Positions 25,412-34,793 of a DNA stretch of 35,797 nucleotides are shown here, piece after piece. The first letter of the stretch is position 1. Every line of letters starts with the position of its first letter. The notes beneath the pieces were generated by a model, which saw nothing but the letters and a program-made list of their open reading frames with translations, was not told the DNA's origin and did no database searches. The position numbers were made by a program, and so were the translations under genes. Source of the stretch: Methanobrevibacter sp. (GTDB taxonomy: Archaea; Methanobacteriota; Methanobacteria; Methanobacteriales; Methanobacteriaceae); NCBI GenBank assembly GCA_017434555.1, contig JAFRFB010000086.1, positions 1 to 35,797 on the forward strand. Reading direction: 5' to 3'.

Positions 25412-27094
25412 ATGGATAAGAATAAATCAATTGATGGGCTTAAACCTCGACAGTCCCAAAAAAAATCTACCCCTAAAAAAACTACTTCACCAAAAAAAGT
25501 AGCCTCTAATAAGAAGTCCGTTAAAAAATCAGCCGCCATAAACAAAACTACCCAAAAAACAGTCAAAAAAACTAAGGATAATATTTCATTAACTACCACC
25601 CAATTAAATAACCTAGATGATTCTTTAACTAATAATACCCCTCAAACCACAAATCCAGTCGAAGATTTTCTGAACCCAGTTCAAACCTTTGATTTTGATG
25701 AAGTAAGTGGTAATCTTAAAGCCACAGCTCCAACCAACCAAACAAAAGTTAAAAAACATCAACCAAAAGTCAAAAAACCTATGTCTAAAAAGCGTAAAAT
25801 TATTTTAATTATCATTCTAGTTATTCTTTTATTACTATTAGCTGCTGGTGTTGGTTTTATTTTGTGGGGTAATGATATTATTGCTAAAATCACTGGCGGA
25901 CAAGGTAATGTCTTTGATTTAGTTTTTCAGAATGACGTATATAAACCACTTAAAACCGATTCAAACGGTCGCACTAATATATTAGCCTTTGGTACTAGCG
26001 GCTACAATATGGATGGCGAAGAAGGTAATGGAGTACACGACGGTGCACAACTTACTGATTCCATAATGGTAATAAGCCTCGATCAAGAAACTGGCGACAT
26101 TGCTATGTTAAGTCTACCTCGTGACCTTAAAGCCTCACCTACTTGTACCGCAACCGGCAAAATTAATGAAGTCTACTGGTGTAATAATATGGATGGAGAC
26201 AATGAATCCGCCGGCGCCAACGCCTTAATGGAGGAAGTTAACCGTATTTTAGGTATAGATTTTCAGTATTATGCTCACCTAAACTGGGGGTCACTCATCC
26301 AAATCGTAGATGCACTTGGTGGTATCACTGTTACTTTAGATGAAGACATCTCGGACTACTACTATACCGGCGCAGTTTTTGAAGCCGGTAAAGAGTACAC
26401 TATTAATGGCGACCAAGCCTTAGGTTTAGCTCGCGCCCGCCACGGCACCGAATCTGGCGATTTTTCTCGTGGCGCTTCTCAACAAAAAATCCTTGTCGGG
26501 ATTAAAGATAAGGTCATAGAAAAAGGACTTTCTATTACCGATATTATCAATCTAGCTAGTGCACTAGGTGATAATCTTCGTACAAATTTTTCTATTGATG
26601 AAATAAAAACTTTAGCCCACTTATCATCCGAATTAGACTTTAATAGTATTCGTCAAGTTTCACTCATTGAGCCAGAAATACTTATGACCACTGGCACTAT
26701 AAATGGTATCTCTTATGTTCTTCCAGTAGGTGGAGCTGGTTATTATACTAGAATTCAAGATTACGTTGCAAAAATGTTTAGTAGTGATCCTAGAAATTAC
26801 GAAGATTACACTATTATTGTCTTAAACGCCTCGGAAACTCCTGGTATCGCAGCGTCCGAAAAAACCTCCCTAGAAGAGGATGGTTACAGTAATATCGAAA
26901 CTGGCGATACTACCATGGAAGATACTAGCGAAGAATATATCCTTTATTCACTCACAGACACCGCACCAGGCGTCAAAAAACTTCTCGAAGAAAAATATAA
27001 TACCACCTCTAAAACCGCAGAGGAACTCCCGCAAACCATTCCACACGAATACGATTTTATAATCATCATCAACAACACCCCAGAAACCAATTAA
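25412..27094 (+). CDS. LytR-CpsA-Psr (LCP) family cell-wall polymer ligase
   Basis: 560 residues. A lysine-rich cytoplasmic tail (1-128), one membrane helix (129-151), the extracellular LCP domain (about 186-400) and a LytR_C domain (about 460-555). LCP motifs: TDSIMVISLDQETGDIAML followed by SLPRDL, and GLARARHGTESGDFSRGASQ with the conserved arginines that bind polyprenyl pyrophosphate. The family transfers polymers from polyprenyl pyrophosphate onto peptidoglycan; this protein is the likely anchor for the glycan made by the neighbouring genes. The start ATG 25412 is set by an extended -10 box 8 nt upstream. A strong terminator follows at 27179-27210. Confidence 0.94.
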   Translation: MDKNKSIDGLKPRQSQKKSTPKKTTSPKKVASNKKSVKKSAAINKTTQKTVKKTKDNISLTTTQLNNLDDSLTNNTPQTTNPVEDFLNPVQTFDFDEVSGNLKATAPTNQTKVKKHQPKVKKPMSKKRKIILIIILVILLLLLAAGVGFILWGNDIIAKITGGQGNVFDLVFQNDVYKPLKTDSNGRTNILAFGTSGYNMDGEEGNGVHDGAQLTDSIMVISLDQETGDIAMLSLPRDLKASPTCTATGKINEVYWCNNMDGDNESAGANALMEEVNRILGIDFQYYAHLNWGSLIQIVDALGGITVTLDEDISDYYYTGAVFEAGKEYTINGDQALGLARARHGTESGDFSRGASQQKILVGIKDKVIEKGLSITDIINLASALGDNLRTNFSIDEIKTLAHLSSELDFNSIRQVSLIEPEILMTTGTINGISYVLPVGGAGYYTRIQDYVAKMFSSDPRNYEDYTIIVLNASETPGIAASEKTSLEEDGYSNIETGDTTMEDTSEEYILYSLTDTAPGVKKLLEEKYNTTSKTAEELPQTIPHEYDFIIIINNTPETN

Positions 27095-27101
27095 TACAAA
27101 A

Positions 27102-27273
27102 AATAATAAAATACTAAATTATTACATAATGAGATTTAGACCAGATTTATTTGATGCATTTTTTACAACTTAACAATGAAAAAATCTCCTAAATTATAAG
27201 GAGATTTTTTCTTGACTTATGTTGTAAACAAATACATCAAATAAGTCCAGTAATAATTTAGTATTTTATTATT
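27102..27273. repeat. 172-bp palindromic element between the LCP gene and jag (MITE-like)
   Basis: Perfect 24-bp inverted terminal arms (27102-27125 and 27250-27273). Further inside, a second, imperfect inverted pair shares the core TTATTTGATG, close to 27149 and 27235, and a terminator hairpin sits at the centre. The nested structure spans nearly the whole intergenic region and reaches into the jag stop codon. There is no coding capacity. It may be a miniature inverted-repeat element or an elaborate bidirectional terminator. Confidence 0.7.
27179..27210. terminator. Bidirectional rho-independent terminator
   Basis: A 12-bp perfect stem, AAAAAATCTCCT pairing with AGGAGATTTTTT, around an 8-nt loop. 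The A-run and T-run on the two sides let it serve both the LCP gene (plus) and the rpmH-rnpA-yidC-jag group (minus). Confidence 0.85.
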
Positions 27274-27727
27274 ATTTCTTACTAATTATCAACTTTCTTT
27301 CTCTTCCCTCCCCCTCAGAGTGTGTATCAATATCCGAATAATCTTGAGCTAATTTATGCACTACTCTTCTATCAGCCGCATTTAAATTAATTTCCATTGG
27401 CTCACCAGTTTCGCGTACTTTTTTAATCCATCCCTCTGCCTTTTCAGCAATTCTATCCGCTCTTTGTTTTTTATAGTTAGCAACGTCAACGTTAACTCTA
27501 GTTATTTCGGCTTCTTTAGATACTAATGCCATCGAAACAATATGCTGCAAAGCACGCAAATTATCCGCATTACGCCCAATCAGAAGTGAGTTAAGTGAAG
27601 TAGATGGTACCGATAATTGAATCACCTCATCATCTATCGTAGAATAAACTGCCACATTGATGCCAAAAAAGCTCAACAAGTCTTCTAGGTATTTAGCTGC
27701 AAACCTAATTGATTCATCTTTATTCAT
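27272..27727 (-). CDS. jag: Jag/KhpB-like RNA-binding protein (KH and R3H domains)
   Basis: 151 residues. An N-terminal to central KH domain with the GxxG-type loop in LIGRNADNLRALQHIV (about 51-66) and a C-terminal R3H domain with the signature ADRRVVHKLAQDY (about 118-130). It lacks the long N-terminal Jag_N extension of Firmicutes KhpB. The family binds RNA and influences cell division and envelope genes. Placement immediately after yidC (3-bp gap) is the conserved order rpmH-rnpA-yidC-jag. The stop codon lies inside the arm of the palindromic element. Confidence 0.93.
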   Translation of the reverse strand: MNKDESIRFAAKYLEDLLSFFGINVAVYSTIDDEVIQLSVPSTSLNSLLIGRNADNLRALQHIVSMALVSKEAEITRVNVDVANYKKQRADRIAEKAEGWIKKVRETGEPMEINLNAADRRVVHKLAQDYSDIDTHSEGEGRERKLIISKK

Positions 27728-33256: not shown

Positions 33257-34504
33257 GTGATAAAGATAGAAAAAATAATCCCTGGCGGTCAGGCTTTGGG
33301 GCAAATGGAAGACGGCAAAAAAATCCTCTTTTGGAATGCCTTGCCAGGAGAAATTGTAACAGAGTATAATATAACTAAGCAAAAATCTCATTATTGTGAG
33401 GCTATTGCTACGTCAGTCATTAATCAATCAGATAAACGTATTACACCTAAAGATGATTGTTTTTTATCTACTTCCCCTTGGCAGATTATTGACTGGGATT
33501 ATGAAAATGATCTCAAAACAGATTTAATAGTTGAAATTTTCCGTGAACACGGAATTATTATAGATAAACCTAATAATTTTTCGGATAACCAAGAATATTT
33601 TTACCGTAATAAAATGGAATATGCACTTTATTGGGATCAACAAACTTCTAAGATTCAACTAGCTTTTCGTCATAGAGGAAGCCATAAGAAATTACCTATC
33701 TTTAAATCTTCCATAGAGCGTCCAGAGATTTTTGCTGCCGCTCAAAATATCATAGACGAACTCAATCAAAAACATGAAGAAGCTCGCAGATACCAAACCC
33801 TTCTCTTACGCTCTAATCAAAAAGGTGAAGTTTCCGGCGGCCTTTACGAAAATCATCAGCCACATCCTAAATTTAAAAATTTAAGTGATGAAATTTTAGG
33901 CTATCATTATTCTTATTCTCCTAATGGATTCTTTCAAATTAATTTACCAGTTTATGAACTCGCTCTTAAAGAAATAAAAAAAATCATTAAAACGGACGAA
34001 GTTTTAGATTTATACGCAGGTGTTGGCACAATCGGTCTTTCTATTGCTCGTGATAGAAAACTCACTCTTGTAGAGGTAGATAAATTTGCCTTTGAGGAAT
34101 TAAATAAAAATGTTATAAATATAATTCACGCTGAGAACATAGAGCGAGTGTCAAGCTGGCACGAGCAGAAGGCGCCTCCCGTAAAGACGGGCGGGCGACT
34201 GGGTTCTCGGAGTGAATTAATTAATACTGTCTTATCAAGATCCGAAGAAGCTTTAGATTATATTAAGCAAAACCAAACTGTAATTTTGGATCCTCCCCGT
34301 TCTGGCTGCGATGATAAACTTATCGAGAAATTAAACACCATTAAACCAACTACTATTATTTATTTATCCTGCAATCCTTCTACTCAAGCTAGAGATGTTA
34401 AGAAATTGCTAGATAATTACAAAATAAAAGATATAAAAACATTCAATTTTTTTCCACGTACACCACACATCGAAAATCTAGTAATTTTAAATAAATCATG
34501 CTAG
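33257..34504 (+). CDS. TrmA/RlmD-family RNA (uracil-5-)-methyltransferase with an in-frame insertion
   Basis: 415 residues, GTG start set by the extended -10 box 6 nt upstream. A TRAM-like N-terminal region (about 1-55) precedes the methyltransferase: SAM motif [12 protein letters not shown] (250-261), DPPRSG (345-350) and the catalytic cysteine in [10 protein letters not shown] (Cys372), as in enzymes that make 5-methyluridine in rRNA or tRNA. Only one Cys occurs where the iron-sulfur members have four, so a cluster is unlikely. Residues about 289-321 (within [20 protein letters not shown] and its flanks) come from a 96-bp GC-rich inverted-repeat element lying between the SAM motif and DPPRSG. 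The modified RNA position cannot be assigned. Confidence 0.92.
34123..34218. repeat. 96-bp palindromic GC-rich element inserted in frame in the methyltransferase gene
   Basis: Sixteen-bp terminal inverted repeats, AATTCACGCTGAGAAC (34123-34138) against the reverse complement of 34203-34218, match at 14 of 16 positions, with one mismatch able to wobble. Inside are two further hairpins: GTGTCA/TGGCAC near 34148-34162, and CCCGT/ACGGG (34178-34191) with CGCC/GGCG flanks. It is clearly richer in G+C than the surrounding gene. The length is 32 codons exactly, so the frame is kept. Confidence 0.7.
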
Positions 34505-34517: not shown

Positions 34518-34607
34518 GGAAAGGTGGCCGAGTGGTTGAAGGCGCACGCTTGGAAAGCGTGTGTGCGAGCAATCGTACCGCAGGTTCGAATCCTGTCCTT
34601 TCCGCCA
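34518..34607 (+). tRNA. tRNA-Ser (anticodon GGA)
   Basis: Acceptor GGAAAGG pairs with CCTTTCC, followed by discriminator G and encoded CCA (34605-34607). The anticodon stem CACGC/GCGTG holds the loop TTGGAAA, giving GGA, which reads UCC and UCU. There is a long class II variable arm and a T loop TTCGAAT. All parts fit a functional serine tRNA. Partial copies of its 3' end follow. Confidence 0.96.
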
Positions 34608-34768
34608 AATTAGCTAAAATAGAACTTGTTCTATTTTAGGAGATTTGAAGGAATGAAATGGGATTATTTTATCCTGTCCTTTCCGCCAAATTAGCGACAG
34701 AAGAGCTTGCTCTTCTGGAGATAATTTAAAGGAATGAATTTAGGATTAACATCCTGTCCTTTCCGCCA
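34590..34768 (+). repeat. Tandem repeats of the tRNA-Ser 3' end with a variable hairpin in each unit
   Basis: The segment ATCCTGTCCTTTCCGCCA occurs at 34590 (in the tRNA), 34671 and 34751, a period of 81 and 80 bp; the first two copies are identical for 25 nt, through AAATTAGC. Each spacer has a hairpin closed by CTTG but with different stem sequences: 34614-34639 (12 bp) and 34698-34717 (9 bp). GGAGAT, then AAGGAATGAA, then GGATTA follow in both. In the second unit AAAGGA (34728-34733) can pair with TCCTTT (34757-34762) around an AGGAT/ATCCT hairpin, giving a tRNA-3'-end-like fold. Confidence 0.8.
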
Positions 34769-34793
34769 TTTTTTCAGACAAATAGGAGTATAA

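Follow-up and report, generated by a model that had tools for sequence, protein, structure and literature searches.

The Rickettsia palindromic elements (RPEs) were reported by Ogata et al. in 2000 and 2002 (as cited in PMC10969869 and PMC6649704), and the title of the 2002 paper presents protein-coding palindromes as unique to Rickettsia. Related repeats include the CGTC- and GTAG-tagged REPs, which are single hairpins of 20-40 bp with an unpaired end tag (PMC3733652), and the coding palindromes of Nematomorpha mitochondria, for which template switching has been proposed (PMC6649704). Here, we analyzed a GC-rich palindrome located within a methyltransferase gene of the window, i.e., the whole stretch of DNA under study (35,797 nucleotides). 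This segment is very probably one copy of a dispersed, non-autonomous family of palindromic elements of Saccharibacteria, about 100-115 bp long, which would be a selfish repeat tolerated in frame.

Host gene and origin of the contig

The ORF carrying the palindrome matches PF05958 (E 1.1e-17) and the RumA model TIGR00479 (E 2.2e-44), and the predicted fold of its product matches RumA (1uwv/2bh2) and RlmCD (5xj1). In agreement with the preliminary description, which held that the insert leaves the frame intact, this rlmD ORF of 415 aa is uninterrupted across the palindrome, which encodes approximately residues 289-321. The window is an entire contig (G000:C116) of a 3.15-Mb bin belonging to another taxon. 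Its rlmD gene is absent from all genomes of the same genus as the bin, and it is 99% identical to its counterpart L013 in genome G041, a MAG of Candidatus Saccharibacteria obtained from goat duodenum. Because of these two observations, the contig appears to be saccharibacterial and misbinned in the MAG of another organism; the comparison was therefore centered on G041 and its genus. The window and G041 share 8.5 kb at 99.7% identity, with the element unaltered. A search of the window's own bin yielded no further copies above chance, since the bin represents a different organism.

Two other repeats were observed in the window. At 27090-27285 there is an AT-rich, nearly perfect nested palindrome with a terminator-like center (-63.8 kcal/mol at about 22% GC), perhaps a hairpin lengthened by the same copying process as the arms of the element. 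At 34600-34770, the 3' end of tRNA-Ser(GGA), TCCTGTCCTTTCCGCCA, recurs two more times downstream, each time after a hairpin, the sequence of which differs between the repeats.

Table 1. Features of the rlmD host gene and of the palindromic element in the window.
Feature	Position	Strand	Evidence
rlmD/rumA-type 23S rRNA (uracil-5-)-methyltransferase gene, host of the element	33257..34504	+	PF05958, TIGR00479, fold match
Palindromic element, full covariance-model match	34113..34229	+	Model R1, E 1.7e-4; same place in G041
Outer arm left, site-specific	34123..34138	+	Fold; arms pair within, not between, copies
Inner hairpin P2, subfamily-specific	34144..34166	+	Fold
Inner hairpin P3 with family motif CCCGTAAAGACGGGC (34178-34192)	34173..34197	+	Fold; motif matches
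Outer arm right, site-specific	34203..34218	+	Fold; arms pair within, not between, copies

Structure and extent of the window copy

The fold described previously for 34123-34218, i.e., terminal inverted repeats around two inner hairpins, was reproduced exactly, with an energy of -45.5 kcal/mol (z = -5.1) that none of 200 shuffles equaled. The outer stem is paired at 15 of 16 positions and encloses both hairpins, forming a three-way junction. The GC content of the segment is 57%, compared to 32% for the remainder of the gene; among all 96-mers of the window only tRNA-Ser rivals it in this respect, and none equals it in folding. The 96-bp limits, on the other hand, were too narrow, as the covariance model extends the element somewhat on both sides (Table 1) and its outer arms are able to extend into the flanking codons.

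The covariance model (R1) was built from 21 copies of genomes G051, G118, G075, and G073, leaving out the window's species. It nevertheless matches the window copy over its full length (model positions 1-114; E 1.7e-4 in 338 kb), this being the only match in the window, and recovers the copy of G041 at the same place (E 3.5e-4 for the genome). The segment thus belongs to the saccharibacterial family according to a model built without its own species. Rfam covariance models detected only tRNA in the host region and nothing over any of the copies tested, up to E values of 2-5; the element was accordingly assigned to no Rfam family.

Distribution across Saccharibacteria

The preliminary description had proposed searching for other copies, and these are indeed present in G041 and throughout its genus. 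Exact matches to the 15-nt hairpin motif CCCGTRAHGACGGGC number 15 in G041, 14 in G051, and 11 in G142, while the reversed motif used as control gave no match in the same genome sample. Within the genus, the motif was found in 54 of 60 species, with up to 25 copies per genome and 336 in total. Outside it the motif is rare: in a phylum sample it was found in 7 of 287 genomes, four of which (G041, G046, G056, and G107) had been recognized as carriers before, and the other three contained single matches. Genome-wide searches with the covariance model revealed copies in 21 of 101 genomes of the family and none in the remaining 80. In viral contigs, 54 matches to a 16-mer were obtained, which is about chance level by our estimate, and the arms are poorly paired in most of them.

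Many copies per genome share the three-way junction, consisting of the outer stem, a variable P2, and P3 with the CCCGTRAHGACGGGC-type motif. The full fold was obtained from a subfamily alignment (A4), while a superfamily-wide MAFFT alignment recovered hairpin P3 only. All genomes are MAGs and the copies were read as stretches of these genomes; chimeric assembly is a possibility, but not one that would extend over dozens of species.

Multi-copy hairpin repeats of this kind recall the REP/BIME-type repeats moved by a RAYT (Y1 HUH) transposase, and in several subfamilies the P2 loop resembles the P3 loop (GTTACGAC and GTAACGAC), as if the element were a hairpin dimer. However, the Y1 transposase domain (PF01797) occurs in just 2 of 60 genomes of the genus and is absent from G041, which has 15 copies. 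With the enzyme nearly absent from the carrier genus, Y1 transposase was rejected as the mover, and a REP/RAYT system is a most improbable explanation.

Copies within genes

Copies lie either in frame within conserved genes or between genes. Long ORFs span 59 of the 81 copies examined, and all 59 are open and in frame; the remaining 22 are intergenic. No broken ORF was seen among the 81 copies, and one copy (L102) forms the end of an ORF. The host genes, named by NCBIfam, include alaS, mnmA, truB, leuS (two copies), topA, argS, ileS, and uvrB in G041, murC, recG, typA, pheT (two copies), dnaX, and lepA in G051, and valS, dnaB, der, clpB, queA, and uvrA in further genomes. Certain sites are recurrent, namely a loop of valS (filled in L066, L104, and L123), a site in topA (L096, L126, and L138), and one in mnmA, which carries an antisense copy in L093 and a sense copy in L107. 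In G051, a copy marks the point at which TsaC and TrmB are joined in a fusion ORF (L111:1735-3078); the two genes may have been fused by the element.

Within genes, 52 of 56 copies are in sense orientation, compared to a fraction of 0.47 expected from open frames alone (p 3.5e-13). Intergenic copies occur in both orientations, and insertion is therefore probably non-directional. Peptides encoded in sense are more hydrophilic (GRAVY -1.12) than those encoded in antisense (-0.32; p 5e-18). Two sense frames are in use among the 52 sense copies, giving PVTTG-like (18 copies) and PRNDG-like (31 copies) peptides, each of them recurrent and neither universal; no Pfam family was matched by the encoded peptides. 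AlphaFold modelled the window protein with a mean pLDDT of 91.9, and only residues 299-312, which fall within the insert, form a stretch scoring below 50. The insert is thus predicted to be a disordered surface loop of RlmD, in line with the surface loop that had been suggested for modelling. We infer that selection on the encoded loop accounts best for the sense bias.

An intervening sequence that is spliced out or translationally bypassed, similar to the byp elements of Magnusiomyces mitochondria or to an unknown mini-intron, would agree with the strong conserved plus-strand fold and with the sense bias within genes. Excision, however, does not require an open frame, and all 59 gene-borne copies are open in frame, in contrast to intergenic copies, of whose sense frames 46% are open; moreover, intergenic copies exist in either orientation. 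This explanation is thus considered very unlikely.

Filled and empty sites at rlmD

In the first five saccharibacterial rlmD genes compared with that of the window, the insert is found at the identical point in all five. Its protein sequence is dissimilar in four of them and identical in L013, which represents the window's own species, and the hairpin is translated in differing frames (PVTTG in L014, PRNGG in L015). More distant orthologues lack the insert. The distance from DLYAG to DPPR is 65-76 aa in these insert-free orthologues and 98 aa in the window, so the gene reads through when the element is absent, as anticipated from the apparent continuity of the flanking protein sequence. Alignment with homologues, which had also been proposed, thus revealed empty sites; the opposite picture, in which all homologues carry the same segment and protein sequence and no copies exist elsewhere, did not arise.

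Across 90 distinct orthologues the insert is present in 43 and missing in 47. On an rlmD tree built without the loop, 21 gains or losses are needed, at least 14 of them on well-supported branches. The same site is filled or empty between related species, such as L034 (filled) and L204 (empty) or L037 (filled) and L218 (empty), while L035 and L184 are filled by different subfamilies and L219 is empty. The loops of L202, L041, and L032 look like deletion scars retaining the arms. In L164 and L039 the same site carries a second type of palindrome, without the CCCGTAACGACGGG motif and with a core like AAGCTTGGnCnAGCGnCyyTGAGCG. In L162, L171, and L181 the P3 stem is altered around an unchanged loop (CCTGTGGCGACAGG and similar), and the family is therefore wider than the exact motif.

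The length of the rlmD loop varies across all bacteria, and the insert could in principle be an ordinary variable protein loop in which the GC-rich palindrome is coincidental, or a surface loop of RlmD specific to this lineage. Yet this nucleotide fold and its motif are also present in unrelated genes and at intergenic sites, the motif is translated in two frames, and the arms covary at the nucleotide level. The dispersed copies refute this reading, to which we give practically no credence.

Fold conservation and maintenance of the arms

In the G051-type subfamily, 93.8% of the cells are paired, with 90 double-sided changes compared to 25 in shuffles. Over all copies, arm pairing amounts to -28.1 kcal/mol within a copy and -10.0 kcal/mol between copies, and between copies the cores resemble each other more than the arms do. 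Homologous rlmD arms of 12 species show 16 double-sided changes, compared to 6.3 in shuffles. Among arm mismatches, 91 are G-T (G-U) and 21 are A-C. Maintenance acting on double-stranded DNA only should treat both types alike, and for this reason the plus strand is the one that folds, either as RNA or as ssDNA.

Covariation in every helix and the excess of G-U over A-C, together with the sense bias within genes, could also indicate a cis-acting RNA element selected for a role in mRNA (pausing, RNase III processing, or stability) rather than a selfish repeat. Against this, site occupancy is erratic, as seen at rlmD, host genes are unrelated to each other, several intergenic copies are antisense to both neighboring genes, and the hydropathy of the peptides matches the sense bias. 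A regulatory element is therefore rather unlikely, although it deserves more weight than splicing or bypass.

The native left flank reappears in inverted form as the outer right arm in several rlmD copies. For example, in L034, next to the empty site of L204, the left codons AKNI yield NILA on the right. These inverted flanks suggest hairpin-templated copying of the host flank.

Spread of the element

Returning to the selfish repeat, the element would spread as selfish DNA and persist by landing in surface loops, where either of its two open sense frames would encode a peptide that is hydrophilic and disordered. Selection would eliminate the other insertions, leaving the strong bias for the sense orientation. 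The outer arms may be kept complementary through hairpin-templated copying (template switching, quasipalindrome correction), which may also lengthen the palindrome by adding the host flank in inverted form, while constraint on the folded plus strand, as RNA or ssDNA, would contribute to arm maintenance. Among the genomes compared, no near-identical pair of strains differing by one insertion was seen, nor was a target-site duplication established, and at some shared sites the insertion could be ancestral, its core having been replaced later, rather than fresh.

Neither Y1 transposase nor reverse-transcriptase candidates provided a mobilizing enzyme. Genes for reverse transcriptases are present in 40 of the 60 genomes of the genus, but their abundance is not correlated with the number of element copies (rho 0.13, p 0.31), leaving a link to the element unsupported. 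G041 has three such genes (L278, L279, and L280), one of them near a lectin-like variable protein; judged by eye from their neighborhood, they look like diversity-generating retroelements (DGRs).

A more speculative possibility, which we hold only tentatively and find doubtful, is a mobile family of structured RNA (or ssDNA) which would spread and be retained through hairpin-templated copying, with new cores entering or replacing the hearts of existing hairpins and arms being rewritten as inverted host flank. If true, this would be a selfish element without fixed ends or a transposase, its fold being kept by copying and not by selection on sequence.

Comparison with known systems

The likeness to RPEs noted in the preliminary description is borne out by the in-frame copies in unrelated genes. 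Both systems consist of palindromes of roughly 100-150 bp with several subfamilies, which are found in frame in unrelated housekeeping genes, where the peptide insertion is tolerated, as well as between genes, in reduced-genome, host-associated bacteria, and with no known transposase. The saccharibacterial element differs in phylum, three-way junction, and fixed hairpin motif, and its site-specific arms have been kept complementary despite deep divergence, in contrast to RPEs, which reportedly lose the identity between their repeats with time (PMC6649704). Judging by the distinct fold and phylum, membership in RPE-1 to RPE-10 is unlikely.

Like the CGTC- and GTAG-tagged REPs, the element is a dispersed hairpin repeat sometimes located within coding regions, and the CGTC class also lacks a dedicated transposase (PMC3733652). 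Unlike them, it measures approximately 100 nt and encloses two hairpins within a long stem; GACG, the complement of CGTC, sits in the paired P3 rather than in an unpaired tag, placing it outside the CGTC-tagged super-family. Given the scarcity of Y1 transposase it also falls outside the REP/RAYT definition, and its site-specific arms differ from the fixed terminal inverted repeats of MITEs. The palindromes of Nematomorpha mitochondria share with it the in-gene inverted repeats, the erratic gain and loss, and arms actively kept complementary (PMC6649704), but have no dispersed family core, while a conserved core defines the saccharibacterial family.

The preliminary description knew of no such family in its lineage, and a limited search of the open-access literature found no description of such elements in Saccharibacteria. 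We thus believe that the family works like RPEs yet is separate, and that it is likely to be new. It would represent a second large system of protein-coding palindromes, found in another phylum of host-dependent bacteria with reduced genomes. Translated repeat peptides in many housekeeping proteins of Saccharibacteria can introduce errors into annotation, alignments, and structure models. The family, with well over a hundred copies in dozens of species, offers material for comparative tests, which can address how peptide insertions enter essential enzymes, why repeats succeed in reduced genomes, and how arm complementarity is upheld.
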